Below, piece after piece: positions 17 through 19,934 of a stretch of 64,000 nucleotides of DNA. Both the position numbers and the translations under genes were made by a program. The notes beneath the pieces were generated by a model. It made no database searches, had not been told where the DNA came from, and saw only the letters and a list, made by a program, of their open reading frames with translations. Origin of the DNA: a virus; IMG/VR virus record IMGVR_UViG_3300028423_000356, positions 1-64,000 of that record; one strand, given 5' to 3'. Positions within the stretch are counted from its first letter, which is position 1, and each line of letters opens with the position of its first letter.

Positions 17-250
17 TTAATCACAGATAACTCCTCCTCAATCTGTGATTAAAATGTCACACAATAAACTCCTCCTCATATTGTGTGACACCATATGACA
101 AACAATTTTACTCTCCCTTTGAATTGTTTGTCATAAAATAGGTGAAGATAGAACTCCGTTTTTAATGCTCTCCCTTAACGTTGAGTTCTCTTCATCTCAC
201 AGTGACAGGCATCTTAATATCCTCCCTTGTTAAGATGTCTGTCACTTTTT
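17..250 (+). ncRNA. tandem array of five hairpins with CUCC (anti-SD-like) loops
   Basis: Five consecutive inverted repeats are visible. HP1 is 17-28/41-52 (12 perfect pairs) and HP2 is 55-66/79-90 (12 perfect pairs); both have the identical loop AACTCCTCCTCA. HP3 is 95-107/122-134 (13 perfect pairs, loop TTACTCTCCCTTTG). HP4 is 143-160/177-194 (16 pairs with two small bulges, loop TTTAATGCTCTCCCTT). HP5 is 201-217/230-246 (17 pairs, one G-T, loop TATCCTCCCTTG), followed by TTTTT. Stems differ completely in sequence while every loop keeps CTCC or CTCCC, so the loop is the conserved part. CCUCC is the 16S anti-Shine-Dalgarno core. The organisation recalls alphaproteobacterial 'cuckoo'/CcsR RNAs, which show CUCC motifs in hairpin loops. 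Orientation is inferred from the gene downstream; the array may continue left of the window. Confidence 0.75.
201..250 (+). terminator. possible rho-independent terminator (hairpin 5 of the array)
   Basis: A 17-pair stem with a 12-base loop is followed directly by TTTTT (246-250). It could end a short RNA made of the hairpin array, or act as the leader hairpin of the gene starting at 268. Its loop also carries CCTCCC, so it may have both roles. Confidence 0.45.
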
Positions 251-267
251 ATATAAAGGATTGCGAA

Positions 268-576
268 ATGAAATTTAAAAATATAAATGATGTCCAGATT
301 GAAAATATTAAAAACACTATTAATAGACTCAACCTTGAGGAATTACAATATCTGAAATCATATATAGACTCAACCTTAAAAGATTTTAAAAATAATAAAC
401 AAGACACCATTAATTTAGGTGACACATTAAAGTTTTATGATGAAAATGATAATCTCAAAGTAGGGAAACTCATTAATAGACTCAACCTTCTCTATGTAGT
501 AGAAGATATAATGGGTAGACAATATAAGGTGCACCCTAAAGATACTCAACTTGTTAGAAATGGAAAGAGATACTAA
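268..576 (+). CDS. hypothetical protein (small, repeat-bearing gene 1)
   Basis: A 102-residue protein of unknown function. The start at 268 is chosen because AAAGGA lies seven bases upstream; a longer frame would run into the hairpin array. The C-terminal half (GDTLKFYDENDNLKVGKL..., then VVEDIMGRQYKVHPKDTQLV) looks like a small beta-barrel (SH3/KOW-like), but this is only an impression. The DNA contains four of the CTCAACCTT-like nonamers (328, 369, 481, 545), read in different frames as LNL or DSTL. One TAAGGTGCA element (525-533), also found three times in the gap at 2290-2724, lies inside it. It overlaps the next gene by one base (TAATG), which suggests translational coupling. Confidence 0.7.
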   Translation: MKFKNINDVQIENIKNTINRLNLEELQYLKSYIDSTLKDFKNNKQDTINLGDTLKFYDENDNLKVGKLINRLNLLYVVEDIMGRQYKVHPKDTQLVRNGKRY

Positions 577-1041
577 TGGCAAATGTATTATTTCAAATTA
601 AGAATGATGTGACAGAAAGGCATATAATACTCAACCTTATAGCATCTGAATTGAATTCTAATAAGTATGAAACAGGGTTTTATGCTCAACCTTCTAATAA
701 TATAGAAGAGTTCATTAGAATTAACTCAACCTATACGACACCAGATATAAAGATCAACCTTGGTGCAAAAAAGAAATCTAATTCTAATGACTCAACCTTA
801 AAGAAAACTTTAAAAGAATTAGATCAACCTCCTATGGTTGAGTTCTGGTATAAAATACCCTTTAAGTTATTCAAAAAAATTATAACACACGACTTCAAAA
901 CATTCAACCTTAAGATAGGTAGAGAATTATACTATGAAGTATATAATAAAGAAAAAGTAAGATATTTGTCACATAGGTTGCTTAATAATGAACTCAACCT
1001 GGGTCCAAATTTCATACCCAAGTTTAATGGAGTTCAACCTC
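328..1041 (+). repeat. 13 dispersed copies of nonamer CTCAACCTT inside two genes
   Basis: Copies begin at 328, 369, 481, 545, 630, 685, 725, 753, 791, 823, 903, 993 and 1033. Six are exact (328, 369, 481, 630, 685, 791), four have one change and three have two or more; the core TCAACC is kept in 12 of 13. Spacing varies from 28 to 112 bases. The copies fall in all three reading frames (LNL, DSTL/NST, AQP/DQP), so the nucleotide string, not a peptide, is conserved. One copy (823-831) can pair with GGTTGA just after it (835-840). All copies are on the coding strand, so they would be present in the mRNA. Confidence 0.8.
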
Positions 1042-1139
1042 AACGTGTATACAAAAGACAATCAGGAAAGAATTATTTTATAGAAACTGGAAGCAACTCT
1101 TACTTAAGAAAAGAACCACAAAAATTCTGTTTTAAGTAA
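576..1139 (+). CDS. hypothetical protein, paralogue of the gene at 22582 (repeat-bearing gene 2)
   Basis: A 187-residue protein of unknown function. It aligns along most of its length with the 171-residue protein at 22582-23097: VEFWYKIPFKLFKK here against VEIWYKIPLDLFEN there, and FNLKIGRELYYEV against INIKIGRTIYLQE, with a similar N-terminus (VLFQIKND / ILFNLKNKD). This copy has insertions of about 25 residues around 60-85 (KSNSNDSTLKK) that carry extra nonamer repeats. Nine of the 13 CTCAACCTT-like elements are in this gene; the paralogue has none. It overlaps the preceding gene by one base. It is followed by about 310 bases without a gene. Confidence 0.75.
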   Translation: MANVLFQIKNDVTERHIILNLIASELNSNKYETGFYAQPSNNIEEFIRINSTYTTPDIKINLGAKKKSNSNDSTLKKTLKELDQPPMVEFWYKIPFKLFKKIITHDFKTFNLKIGRELYYEVYNKEKVRYLSHRLLNNELNLGPNFIPKFNGVQPQRVYKRQSGKNYFIETGSNSYLRKEPQKFCFK

Positions 1140-3830: not shown

Positions 3831-3850
3831 ATTATAAAGGGAGAATGAAT

Positions 3851-4126
3851 ATGAAAGATACATTAACAGTTAGATATTATGCTCGTCCTGATGGTCGTAT
3901 GAGTGAAATTGAAATGAGTAACATCTTTAAAGAAGATGTGGATTTTTTTGTAAAGAATAATATAGTCGTATCAATAGAAGAATTGATGACCGGGGATATT
4001 GTGGTATATGGTTGTCCAAGATATGATGATTCTGAAGAGAGTGAAATTATAGTTTTCTCTGATAATAGAAATTGTCAAGATACTATGAAAAATCTTAGAG
4101 AAAAATGTGAAAAGGAATTTTTATGA
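3851..4126 (+). CDS. hypothetical protein
   Basis: A 91-residue acidic protein of unknown function (MKDTLTVRYYARPDGRMSEIEMS...). ATG 3851 is preferred to ATG 3845 because AAAGGGAG ends at 3843, which leaves a normal spacing only for the later codon. It overlaps the next gene by ATGA. No motif is recognised. Confidence 0.55.
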   Translation: MKDTLTVRYYARPDGRMSEIEMSNIFKEDVDFFVKNNIVVSIEELMTGDIVVYGCPRYDDSEESEIIVFSDNRNCQDTMKNLREKCEKEFL

Positions 4127-16260: not shown

Positions 16261-16959
16261 ATGAAAGTATCAGTAGTATGTGTATTCTGGGGTGATAAAT
16301 TTTCCTTAGATTACGTTTACAATCTTAAATCTATGGTGGAGAGGAATACCACTGTAGAACATGAATTTGTATGTTTTACCGACAGAGATGATATTCCTGG
16401 TGTTAAAACTAAAAAACTTGTAAATGGTTTAAAGGGGTGGTGGAACAAATTACAAATATTTGATAGAAGACATAATTTAAATGAAAGAGTTGTGTTTTTT
16501 GATTTAGACACTGTTATAGTTAACAACATTGATTGGTTAATGGAATGGAATGGTTTGTTTATGGGTATTGAAGACTTAGGTGCAACAAATCCACACCAAC
16601 CACATCTAAAAAATAGACTACAATCACCCATTTTAGCATTTGATTATAATAAAAATCATGATATATGGTCACATTTTATTAAAAACTTAGATAAAATATT
16701 GATAACATATAGAGGTGATGGTGAGTATCTTCATGGTGTTATACCACAGAGTCGTAGGGTTCTTTTACAGAATGTTTTTCCAGATAAAATAAAGTCTTAT
16801 AAGTATCATGTATATCCTAACAAACCAAATGAAAAAACATCCATTGTTTGTTTTCATGGTAGACCCAGTATTATACAAGCAATGAGTGAAACTGTTAGAA
16901 CTCCTATGAGAATATATGAACCACAAAAATGGATAAAGGATTATTGGAAAAATGAGTAA
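16261..16959 (+). CDS. GT-A type glycosyltransferase-like protein
   Basis: A 232-residue protein. VSVVCVFWGDKFSLDYVYNLKSMVERN starts a GT-A Rossmann-like domain; the DxD metal site is FFDLDTVIV (about residues 78-86), followed by a late CFHGRPSI that would contact the sugar nucleotide. AGGAG precedes the start. It overlaps the next gene by eight bases, so the two are translated together. Confidence 0.7.
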   Translation: MKVSVVCVFWGDKFSLDYVYNLKSMVERNTTVEHEFVCFTDRDDIPGVKTKKLVNGLKGWWNKLQIFDRRHNLNERVVFFDLDTVIVNNIDWLMEWNGLFMGIEDLGATNPHQPHLKNRLQSPILAFDYNKNHDIWSHFIKNLDKILITYRGDGEYLHGVIPQSRRVLLQNVFPDKIKSYKYHVYPNKPNEKTSIVCFHGRPSIIQAMSETVRTPMRIYEPQKWIKDYWKNE

Positions 16960-17557
16960 GAAAGTAGCACATATAATTGGAAATGGAGACCAATCTGTAC
17001 TTTATAAAAACTCTCCAGGTATTAAGTTAACTTGTAATTTACCACCATTTGATATTAAAGATGTGTTTGCAACATTTATTGTAGATTTTAAAATGTGTCG
17101 CGCACTTGCAGAAGGTAGTGTAAATTTAGATAGTTACAATTGGATTATGGGATTTAGACCAAAAACATATTGTGAAAAGGTTAACCATCCTTTCTATGTG
17201 AAAAACGCACATAGAATAAGAGGTTTTTATCTAGATTTACCACAGTATGCTGGAAATTACACTAACTTTAACTGTGGTATGATGGCCACACATTTTGCGG
17301 CAAATAAACTAAAAATAGATGAAATACATTTATATGGATTCGATTCTCTTTTTGATAAACAGATGAGAAGTTATACTGATTTGGTCTTAAACTCTGATAG
17401 AAGTGTTAGTAACAACAAAAGATTATTTGATAATTGGGCACCAATATGGGAAAATATATTCAAAGAGTTTCCTACAACTAAATTTGTTTTACACCATATA
17501 CATAAAAATATTAAAATAGACTTACCTGAAAATGCAACTGTGAAAGTTCATAAATAA
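16952..17557 (+). CDS. conserved protein of the sugar-transfer cluster, possibly sialyltransferase/DUF115-like
   Basis: A 201-residue protein starting KKVAHIIGNGDQSVLYKNSPGIK, a nucleotide-binding-like loop, with NCGMMATHFAANKLKIDEIHLYGFDSLF in the second half. That layout (GxGxS..., then an 'xxAxxLGxxxIxLxGxD' helix-strand) resembles the GT42 sialyltransferase and DUF115 groups. No catalytic residues can be confirmed. It closes the cluster; a terminator follows. Confidence 0.5.
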   Translation: MSKKVAHIIGNGDQSVLYKNSPGIKLTCNLPPFDIKDVFATFIVDFKMCRALAEGSVNLDSYNWIMGFRPKTYCEKVNHPFYVKNAHRIRGFYLDLPQYAGNYTNFNCGMMATHFAANKLKIDEIHLYGFDSLFDKQMRSYTDLVLNSDRSVSNNKRLFDNWAPIWENIFKEFPTTKFVLHHIHKNIKIDLPENATVKVHK

Positions 17558-17583
17558 AATTAAAAAAAAGTTAATAATATTAC

Positions 17584-17610
17584 AAAGGGGGTTGAATACT
17601 CCCTTTTTTT
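17584..17610 (+). terminator. rho-independent terminator
   Basis: AAAGGGGG (17584-17591) pairs with CTCCCTTT (17599-17606, one G-T) around TTGAATA, and the stem runs into TTTTTTT. It ends the sugar-transfer cluster transcript. Confidence 0.85.
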
Positions 17611-17643
17611 ATTCTATATATCATTTATTAGAAGGAATATAAA

Positions 17644-17847
17644 ATGATTATAAATGCAAATGACAGTGATAGTTTGAATAACCCTTGTGATGATATAAGT
17701 GATAAAATAGGAGAATGGTTGAATGTCAAAGAAAAGAAAAACAAGTCAGAAAACGATGAATTTAAATTGGATACAAATAGACCAAATGATATGGAACCAA
17801 ATACAATATTGGGATGGATCTTTGGGAAAAAAGATGGAAATCAATAA
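17644..17847 (+). CDS. hypothetical protein
   Basis: A 67-residue acidic, probably flexible protein (MIINANDSDSLNNPCDDISDKIG...). AAGGAATATAAA precedes the start. It carries one Asp-Ser-Asp. It overlaps the next gene by 14 bases. Function unknown. Confidence 0.5.
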   Translation: MIINANDSDSLNNPCDDISDKIGEWLNVKEKKNKSENDEFKLDTNRPNDMEPNTILGWIFGKKDGNQ

Positions 17848-18010
17848 TATTATAATGGATACCTTTGGGTGGGATGAAAGACAAACTAAGGTTGCAACTG
17901 AACCATTATTCAAAAGATATATGAAATTTAATAATATTGAAGTGAAAAAACCTATAAAGGAACAATGTGAACAAAGTAATGATGGGACATTAGATGTGTT
18001 TTTTCAATGA
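17834..18010 (+). CDS. hypothetical small protein
   Basis: A 58-residue protein (MEINNIIMDTFGWDERQTKVATEPLF...) ending GTLDVFFQ. ATG 17834 is preferred because the in-frame region before it is a shadow of the previous gene. GGAAAAAAG lies upstream. The Trp/Phe-rich middle and KRYMKFNNIEVKKPIKEQC suggest a folded small protein, but no family is recognised. Confidence 0.5.
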   Translation: MEINNIIMDTFGWDERQTKVATEPLFKRYMKFNNIEVKKPIKEQCEQSNDGTLDVFFQ

Positions 18011-18016
18011 TTACTA

Positions 18017-18045
18017 TTGACTTTTAAGTGAAATGATACTATATT
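18017..18045 (+). promoter_or_regulatory. sigma70-like promoter
   Basis: TTGACT (18017-18022), 17 bases, TATATT (18040-18045) within ATACTATATTAT, 25 bases before the next gene. Confidence 0.85.
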
Positions 18046-18070
18046 ATATAATAGAACAGGAGAAATAGTA

Positions 18071-18634
18071 ATGAATATTTTTATATTAGATGAGAATCCA
18101 ATCAAAGCAGCACAGTTACAATGTGATAAACATATAGTTAAAATGATTGTAGAATCTGCTCAAATGTTATCAACTGCACATAGGATGTTAGATGGTAGAA
18201 TGGTAAAGAGACCTTCCAAATCAGGTAAAACTTGGGTGAAATACTATTTACATCCAAATGAACATATGGAAACAAATTTATATAAAGCAGTTCATTTCGG
18301 TCATCCTTGCACTGTGTGGACTATGGAATCTAATATGAACTATAAGTGGCATTATGAACACTTTAAAGCATTGTTACAAGAATATACTTATAGATATAAT
18401 AAGGTTCATAAATCTTCTGAATTACTACCCATTTTAAAGAAAATACCAGTAAACATACCAAAGACAAGTAATTTAACACCTTTTAAACTGGCAATGGGTT
18501 CAAATCCAGAATGTATGTTAGAAAACCCAGTTGAATCGTACAGGGCATTCTACCAAACAAAACAAAAAAGATTTAAAATGGTTTGGTCAAAAAGATCTGT
18601 TCCTAATTGGTTTAATCAGTTAGAGTTAGTATAA
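18071..18634 (+). CDS. conserved marine-phage protein, possible pyrimidine-dimer glycosylase-like
   Basis: A 187-residue protein: MNIFILDENPIKAAQLQCDKHIVKMIVESAQMLSTAHRML, then HPCTVWTMESNMNYKWHYEHFKALLQEYTYRYNKVHK, and VESYRAFYQTKQKRFKMVW...RSVPNWF at the end. This is a well-conserved family in T4-like marine phages, sometimes annotated with pyrimidine-dimer DNA glycosylases; the conserved His/Lys cluster near the N-terminus (CDKHIVKM) would suit such chemistry. I cannot confirm it from sequence alone. GGAGA precedes the start and a promoter drives it. Confidence 0.65.
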   Translation: MNIFILDENPIKAAQLQCDKHIVKMIVESAQMLSTAHRMLDGRMVKRPSKSGKTWVKYYLHPNEHMETNLYKAVHFGHPCTVWTMESNMNYKWHYEHFKALLQEYTYRYNKVHKSSELLPILKKIPVNIPKTSNLTPFKLAMGSNPECMLENPVESYRAFYQTKQKRFKMVWSKRSVPNWFNQLELV

Positions 18635-18644
18635 GGAGAATATA

Positions 18645-18905
18645 ATGTTGTTAGCAATAGATATGTTAAAAGACTTTAATGATTCTTTGTCAAATGAAGA
18701 TAATTGGAATGAAAATGGTCCTATAATATGGGACAAAGTATATGAAGAATTAAAAGAAAAGTATAAAGATAAAAATGAAAAAGAAGTAAAAGAAGTATTC
18801 AACTCCTTTAAAGAAGTTACAGACAGTATATTGGGTATAGGTGTATTCAATGATATTACATATGAAGACTATGTTTGTTTTATAAAAGGTGAAGATACAA
18901 TATAA
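18645..18905 (+). CDS. hypothetical protein
   Basis: An 86-residue acidic helical protein (MLLAIDMLKDFNDSLSNEDN..., ELKEKYKDKNEKEVKEVFNSF). AAGGAG precedes the start. It ends 12 bases before the next gene. Function unknown. Confidence 0.55.
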   Translation: MLLAIDMLKDFNDSLSNEDNWNENGPIIWDKVYEELKEKYKDKNEKEVKEVFNSFKEVTDSILGIGVFNDITYEDYVCFIKGEDTI

Positions 18906-18917
18906 TATTGGAGAATA

Positions 18918-19178
18918 ATGATGTTTAGAATATATTTCACACCTAGATTTTATGGATTAAGTTTGTTTTACTTGATAATTCAAAATCAATGGCACTTACC
19001 ATTTATAGAGGGTAAACCAAATATAAGTCGAATAGAAGACATGTTAACAATAGAAAGTTTAAGAAATAACATTTATCCAGTTTCAAAAGAAGATTATGAA
19101 TATGCAATAAACATGATAGAATGTTTAGGTGAAGATGGACTAGATGAAGATAGTGATGGTTTCAGATACTTTGAATAA
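18918..19178 (+). CDS. hypothetical protein
   Basis: An 86-residue protein (MMFRIYFTPRFYGLSLFYLIIQ...), with a hydrophobic N-terminal third and an acidic end (DGLDEDSDGFRYFE). GGAG lies seven bases before ATG 18918; the next codon is also ATG. Function unknown. Confidence 0.55.
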   Translation: MMFRIYFTPRFYGLSLFYLIIQNQWHLPFIEGKPNISRIEDMLTIESLRNNIYPVSKEDYEYAINMIECLGEDGLDEDSDGFRYFE

Positions 19179-19193
19179 CATAGGAGTTTTACA

Positions 19194-19595
19194 ATGTTTA
19201 AAAGAAAATATCAATGGCCCTATAATGATAAATTGGGTACGGTTAGTGTAAATTATGAAGATGGGGTAATAGAAGAAATTGATTTAATAGTATCTTCTAA
19301 AAAACCTAAAAAAGCAATGTATAAACACACCCATTATAATAATGATGGCACTAAAATAATGGAATTCACAACTGACATAGAAAATAATTTGAGACCAGTT
19401 ATTAAAAACCCATCCGAAAAGGAACACCTTGCTGGTGTAACTTATGGGTATAATAACAATGTTGTATCAGAGACATTTATGTGTAATGTATGGAGTGGAT
19501 TACTTAAAAGAGAATGGATTGTTTCTAAAATAAATTATTATGATGAACAGGGTAATTTTATAGAATCAGAAAATAACATAAGCTCACTGTTTTAA
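19194..19595 (+). CDS. hypothetical protein
   Basis: A 133-residue, beta-rich sequence (KLGTVSVNYEDGVIEEIDLIVSSKKP...) of unknown function. AGGAG precedes the start. No known domain is recognised. Confidence 0.55.
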   Translation: MFKRKYQWPYNDKLGTVSVNYEDGVIEEIDLIVSSKKPKKAMYKHTHYNNDGTKIMEFTTDIENNLRPVIKNPSEKEHLAGVTYGYNNNVVSETFMCNVWSGLLKREWIVSKINYYDEQGNFIESENNISSLF

Positions 19596-19610
19596 AATAA
19601 GGTATTGAAA

Positions 19611-19934
19611 ATGTATAATAGAAAAATAGAAATTGAAATTGAAAGTTTTCTTCAACCAAATAATATTGTTAAATATGAATTATATGGTCTTGTGGGACAT
19701 TCATCTTTAAAATCAGTAGAAAAACACCCAGTTGAGTATGGAACTGTTAGAATGATAGGAGAAAATCCAATATATGTTTATCATATCAATAAAATAAGAT
19801 ATGGTTTTTTAAATTTAAAAGTCAGATATGAAATACACTGGAAATATTTAATGGCGGAATATTATTATAATAGAAGAGAAGAATATCCAGATTTTAATTA
19901 TGTCGATTATATCGACTCTATTAAATGGAAATAA
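19611..19934 (+). CDS. hypothetical protein
   Basis: A 107-residue protein rich in Tyr and Glu (MYNRKIEIEIESFLQPNNIVK..., YHINKIRYGFLNLKVRYEIHW). ATG 19611 is used; an in-frame TTG at 19605 is less likely. TAAGGTATT lies upstream. Function unknown. Confidence 0.55.
   Translation: MYNRKIEIEIESFLQPNNIVKYELYGLVGHSSLKSVEKHPVEYGTVRMIGENPIYVYHINKIRYGFLNLKVRYEIHWKYLMAEYYYNRREEYPDFNYVDYIDSIKWK

Follow-up and report, generated by a model that had tools for sequence, protein, structure and literature searches.

An ar14-like array of five hairpins with anti-Shine-Dalgarno loops at the end of a T4-like phage contig

Anti-Shine-Dalgarno (anti-SD) "cuckoo" RNAs are stress and symbiosis regulators in alphaproteobacteria. 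The first 250 nucleotides of virus record IMGVR_UViG_3300028423_000356 raise the question of whether a phage carries an RNA of this type and, if so, which mRNAs it would act upon. The record is a 135.5-kb viral contig (135,502 nucleotides) with a G+C content of 30%; the window, by which we mean the whole stretch of DNA analysed, is its first 64 kb, and the genes of the window are of the T4-like myovirus type. Among annotated phages, the nearest large terminase is that of Phage C48C1 (68.6%), which is listed under Kyanoviridae, and the class II ribonucleotide reductase shares 66% identity with that of Rhizobium phage RHph_I1_18. The host may be an alphaproteobacterium. Host assignment by way of HsdM was rejected, as this mobile gene indicates no host. 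No strong ar14 match was found in the class of genome G099, and no AT-rich host was found.

Five consecutive hairpins occupy positions 17 to 246 of the plus strand:

17 to 52, plus strand: H1, 12 perfect pairs, loop AACUCCUCCUCA at 29-40, z = -7.6; first hairpin of the RF02344 match at 13-135
55 to 90, plus strand: H2, 12 perfect pairs, loop AACUCCUCCUCA at 67-78, z = -6.5; second hairpin of the RF02344 match
94 to 135, plus strand: H3, 15 pairs, loop UACUCUCCCUUU at 109-120, z = -8.4; third hairpin of the RF02344 match
140 to 197, plus strand: H4, imperfect stem with two small bulges, loop UUUAAUGCUCUCCCUU at 161-176, z = -5.1; outside the RF02344 alignment
201 to 246, plus strand: H5, 19 pairs, loop UCCUCCCU at 220-227, z = -9.7; followed by a T-run to 250, a probable terminator

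The array is real and far beyond chance. Positions 1-300 fold at -102 kcal/mol (z = -12.5), and none of 200 shuffles is equally stable; folded singly, the hairpins have z values of -5.1 to -9.7. The five hairpins of the preliminary description are present where it placed them, with stems of 12-19 bp rather than 12-17 pairs. The sequence AACTCCTCCTCA occurs twice (expected 0.00), and the expectation for a pattern of three spaced CTCYYCC loops in the window is likewise 0.00. The plus strand of the whole 135.5-kb record has 78 stems of 10 bp or longer, and within this set CTCC, TCCC or CCTC loops are confined to members of the array. The loops of H1 and H2 hold CUCCUCCUC, those of H3 and H4 hold CUCUCCCUU, and that of H5 holds UCCUCCCU. 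The stems had been called unrelated, and they do differ among the five hairpins, but H1 and H2 match at 77% over 26 nt, differ in ways that preserve pairing, and constitute a diverged duplication. The contig ends 17 nt before the array and cuts off what lies upstream, so that the record does not fix the array's upstream limit, its promoter or its full number of hairpins; five are those in the record.

We compared the array with known RNA families. At curated cut-offs, an Rfam search of the window returned no match. In a search of 1450 b, however, the alphaproteobacterial ar14 model, RF02344, aligns its positions 1-123 to 13-135 at 43.0 bits (E = 3e-6), short of the curated gathering cut-off of 58.8 bits, and in a search of the whole record it scores 38.2 bits (E = 7.9e-7). 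This is by far the best Rfam match, with the next families at E > 1, and it supports the likeness to cuckoo/CcsR RNAs that had been suggested from the letters. The model lies end to end on H1-H3, reproducing the ar14 architecture of three consecutive hairpins, with H4 and H5 as extras. RNAs of ar14 and its kin comprise three, four or more hairpins, in which the stems are hypervariable and every loop carries the anti-SD motif CCUCCUCCC (PMC10746234, PMC3927594, PMC7143759), and in S. meliloti the member NfeR1 uses its anti-SD loops to pair with the translation initiation regions of mRNAs, which are thereby silenced (PMC10746234). Like these trans-acting small RNAs, the phage array has tandem hairpins, anti-SD loops and hypervariable stems, of which H1 and H2 keep pairing as they diverge, and its H1 and H2 loops share ACUCCUCCUC with ar14 loops. 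It differs from ar14 in having five rather than three hairpins, stems that are AT-rich, a T4-like phage as carrier, and loops altered to CUCUCCCUU/UCCUCCCUU in H3-H5. Because the score lies below the cut-off and none of the five loops holds the complete 9-mer CCUCCUCCC, we describe the array, by its sequence, as ar14-like and not as a certified ar14 member.

The same evidence bears on the idea that the hairpins are palindromes with a DNA-level or structural function (replication, recombination, or processing by RNase III) and that their loops play no regulatory role. The array does lie at a contig end, repeats being places at which assemblies are prone to break, and perfect stems are generally good RNase III substrates. 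Nevertheless, loops conserved on one strand while the stems diverge, together with the fit to a known RNA family, make this very improbable, and the structured RNA with anti-SD loops that had been proposed for this phage is supported.

Arrays of anti-SD-loop hairpins are also formed by CcsR1-4 of Rhodobacter and the cuckoo RNAs, in which the number of modules varies (PMC3927594). The CcsR RNAs are processed from the 3' UTR of ccaF1, a DUF1127 gene (PMC8625941), whereas no ccaF1-like gene was seen here; the contig lacks the sequence upstream of the array, and at its other end it breaks off within an ORF (MNIGGVSAGMGPVNTETVA...). Conceivably, if the contig ends join, the phage array too would sit beside or behind a small ORF. 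Bacterial anti-SD arrays reach about 16 tandem hairpins (L444 and L445, from genomes G345 and G319, and L448), and by eye the end of the ORF upstream of these arrays resembles a DUF1127/CcaF1-type protein. As G345, a genome in the Pseudomonadota sample, carries about 16 such hairpins, the view of the phage array as a larger version of the bacterial RNAs fails. C-rich loops are shared as well with Gram-positive small RNAs such as S. aureus RNAIII, which pair with SD sequences (PMC3927594), but the phage array has no sequence or family match to them. A CsrB/RsmZ-type RNA was rejected, since it requires a repeated GGA loop and GGA occurs in none of the five loops; nothing in the array particularly favours the CsrA/GGA binding raised earlier.

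We put at roughly 0.6 the probability that the array is a phage anti-SD small RNA that works like ar14/NfeR1 and the CcsR/cuckoo RNAs, with a split in its targets that we infer from loop complements. The virus would probably employ this RNA to block translation of selected genes. The array would be transcribed and act in trans: stable, freely diverging stems would present C-rich loops, these would base-pair with mRNAs at their ribosome-binding sites and so block the initiation of translation, and H5 would terminate the RNA near 250. The anti-SD reading draws on the structure, the common loops, the similarity to RF02344 and the presence of some loop complements at phage start sites; against it stand the sub-threshold RF02344 score and the failure to find an array homologue in the relatives searched. 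RF02344 was not found at E <= 1 in any of 46 other records, mostly terminase (terL) relatives together with C48C1 and RHph_I1_18, many of them fragments. A blastn search of the array against phages gave short chance matches only, two collection patterns for close array homologues gave chance matches without such hairpins, and all 34 matches to GTTCAACCTCAACCTT in viral contigs were due to chance. Likewise, CTCAACCT arrays were absent from 18 other records, and searches with P0002 and with the neighbouring dATP/dGTP diphosphohydrolase did not find a homologous locus.

Complements of the loops are unevenly distributed in the phage genome. GAGGAGG, which is complementary to the H1/H2 loop core, and GGAGGAG are absent from the whole record outside the array. 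The phage's own leaders are of the AAGGA and AAGGAG type; compared with relatives, its GGAG-bearing leaders less often hold GGAGG (p = 0.02) and never hold GAGGAG (p = 0.003). Low G+C may contribute to the scarcity of GGAGG. The complement of the H3 loop, AAAGGGAG, has seven copies beyond the array; six of the seven are at start sites, as are all four copies of AAGGGAGA outside the array. The ORFs with AAAGGGAG at the start site are short ORFs and hsdM:

3836 to 4126, plus strand: 93-aa ORF with its start at 3845 and the leader AAAGGGAGA, complementary to the H3 loop; a candidate target inside the window
131248, plus strand: start site with AAAGGGAG
131776, plus strand: start site with AAAGGGAG, hsdM
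130263, minus strand: start site with AAAGGGAG
128824, minus strand: start site with AAAGGGAG
128448, minus strand: start site with AAAGGGAG

These copies lie toward both contig ends, and would be near the array if the ends join. Since the phage lacks GAGGAGG elsewhere, the H1 and H2 loops (CUCCUCCUC) would be aimed at host mRNAs, while the H3 loop, and H4 and H5 more weakly, may damp phage genes with AAAGGGAG leaders, hsdM included. This split, with the host as target for H1/H2 and phage genes for H3, is put forward less firmly than the type of RNA: AAAGGGAG is used more than in relatives only at p ~0.03, and SD-like sequences are expected at start sites in any case. The fit of the loops to the leader type of the phage itself makes a specific rewiring hypothesis directly testable.

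The region that follows the hairpins bears on other possible roles for them. It contains the following features:

268 to 576, plus strand: P0001, a 102-aa ORF just past the array, without known relatives, with three TCAACCT copies
576 to 1139, plus strand: P0002, a 187-aa ORF without known relatives, with nine TCAACCT copies
329 to 1040, plus strand only: TCAACCT array of 12 copies in all three reading frames of P0001/P0002, tied to the hairpins by position only

P0001 begins 22 nt past H5, and H5, the only one of the five scored as terminator-like, with a T-run behind it, in keeping with the earlier remark that the last stem may be a terminator, is the sole such site on the plus strand within 1-1500. 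In addition, its loop AUCCU is complementary over 5 bp to the P0001 ribosome-binding site, AGGAU. The array might thus be a cis-acting leader of the P0001-P0002 mRNA that works through termination and readthrough at H5, mRNA stabilisation, or formation of this 5-bp duplex. We regard this as unlikely, given that H1-H4 have no T-run and that five loops of the same type and the RF02344 match would be left unexplained.

No other heptamer of the record clusters as strongly on a single strand as TCAACCT. When P0001 and P0002 were recoded synonymously with phage codon usage in 3000 trials, the mean number of TCAACCT copies was 0.58 and the maximum 4, against the 12 observed; the array is selected at the nucleotide level. 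By eye, many copies resemble 9-base insertions that keep the frame, and without the motif codons P0001 and P0002 still have no relatives among the phages searched. TCAACCT triples in viral contigs are nearly all spaced in multiples of three, unlike those of P0001/P0002, and on account of this spacing they are taken to be coding repeats. Four more copies lie at the other contig end (135,368-135,400), behind a TTGACA/TATAAT-like promoter.

Such a density of sites on one strand would suit a decoy, in which a protein or G-rich small RNA, from either host or phage, is bound and titrated by the C-rich loops and perhaps also by the 12 CUCAACCU sites. The array loops resemble CUCNNCCU, the selected TCAACCT array follows the hairpins directly, and the four further copies are in a leader. 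Set against this, no ligand is known, the TCAACCT copies show no excess of unpairedness (p = 0.28), and the array's relationship to an RNA family that acts by base-pairing speaks for mRNAs as targets; we consider a decoy rather improbable. We would give similarly little credence to a combined scheme in which hairpins and TCAACCT array form one transcript, the anti-SD loops shutting off translation starts of the host but leaving most phage genes unaffected, and the CUCAACCU sites, lodged in two otherwise dispensable genes, capturing a second ligand. If it were true, this would be a new kind of phage takeover RNA.

For the preferred reading, an anti-SD small RNA acting on mRNAs, other phages provide a comparison. 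A pattern search of viral contigs followed by folding yielded at least the arrays named here among the matches listed. Those with CACTCCTCCTCCCAG loops among these matches are above-threshold ar14 (RF02344) members in phage records of up to 65 kb, and phage-borne ar14 above threshold includes at least L161, L166, L212, L215, L217, L220, L225 and L234. In the cases examined, the ar14 of 60-65-kb phages is flanked on one side by a phage helicase gene and on the other by a phage exonuclease gene; another contig, with a T7-type RNA polymerase, carries two tandem copies. Among 8 distinct sequences of the helicase/exonuclease group, 98.8% of stem cells pair and six pairs change on both sides while the loops stay constant, and the covariation score exceeds those of all shuffles and all slid controls. 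Because the stems covary around constant loops, the alignments indicate that anti-SD hairpin RNAs are maintained in phages, and, since above-threshold ar14 occurs in unrelated phages, that phages have held this type of RNA more than once. The T4-like array resembles these loci in being a set of anti-SD hairpins on a phage contig. It differs from them in that they exceed the cut-off, have three hairpins each at a GC content of 52-60%, and sit with the helicase/exonuclease module or a T7-type RNA polymerase. That anti-SD RNAs occur on three or more dissimilar kinds of phage suggests that phages repeatedly use an RNA design by which the host itself silences translation. Neither alphaproteobacteria nor rhizobia are mentioned in a review of small RNAs derived from phages (PMC12197685). 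A different repeat was seen at 3870-4300 of L336, where ten 25-bp repeats (CCTGTAACTCAACCTAAAGTCTGAC) are separated by 17-18 nt of unique sequence, an arrangement that is CRISPR-like with very short spacers.

Some further observations concern the other end of the phage contig. Near it, 131776-135330 of the record (16274-19828 of locus L002) holds the type I genes hsdM and hsdS and then an ORF of 82 aa, possibly a remnant of hsdR, in which Pfam finds nothing. Within L002, the hsdM promoter and its AAAGGGAG leader (131690-131790 of the record) are near-exactly duplicated at 131160-131260, before an upstream 59-aa ORF. A cluster of short ORFs occupies the minus strand at 128200-130600 of the record, also in L002; several of these have promoter-like sequences of their own and AAAGGGAG-type leaders, and they are perhaps early genes.
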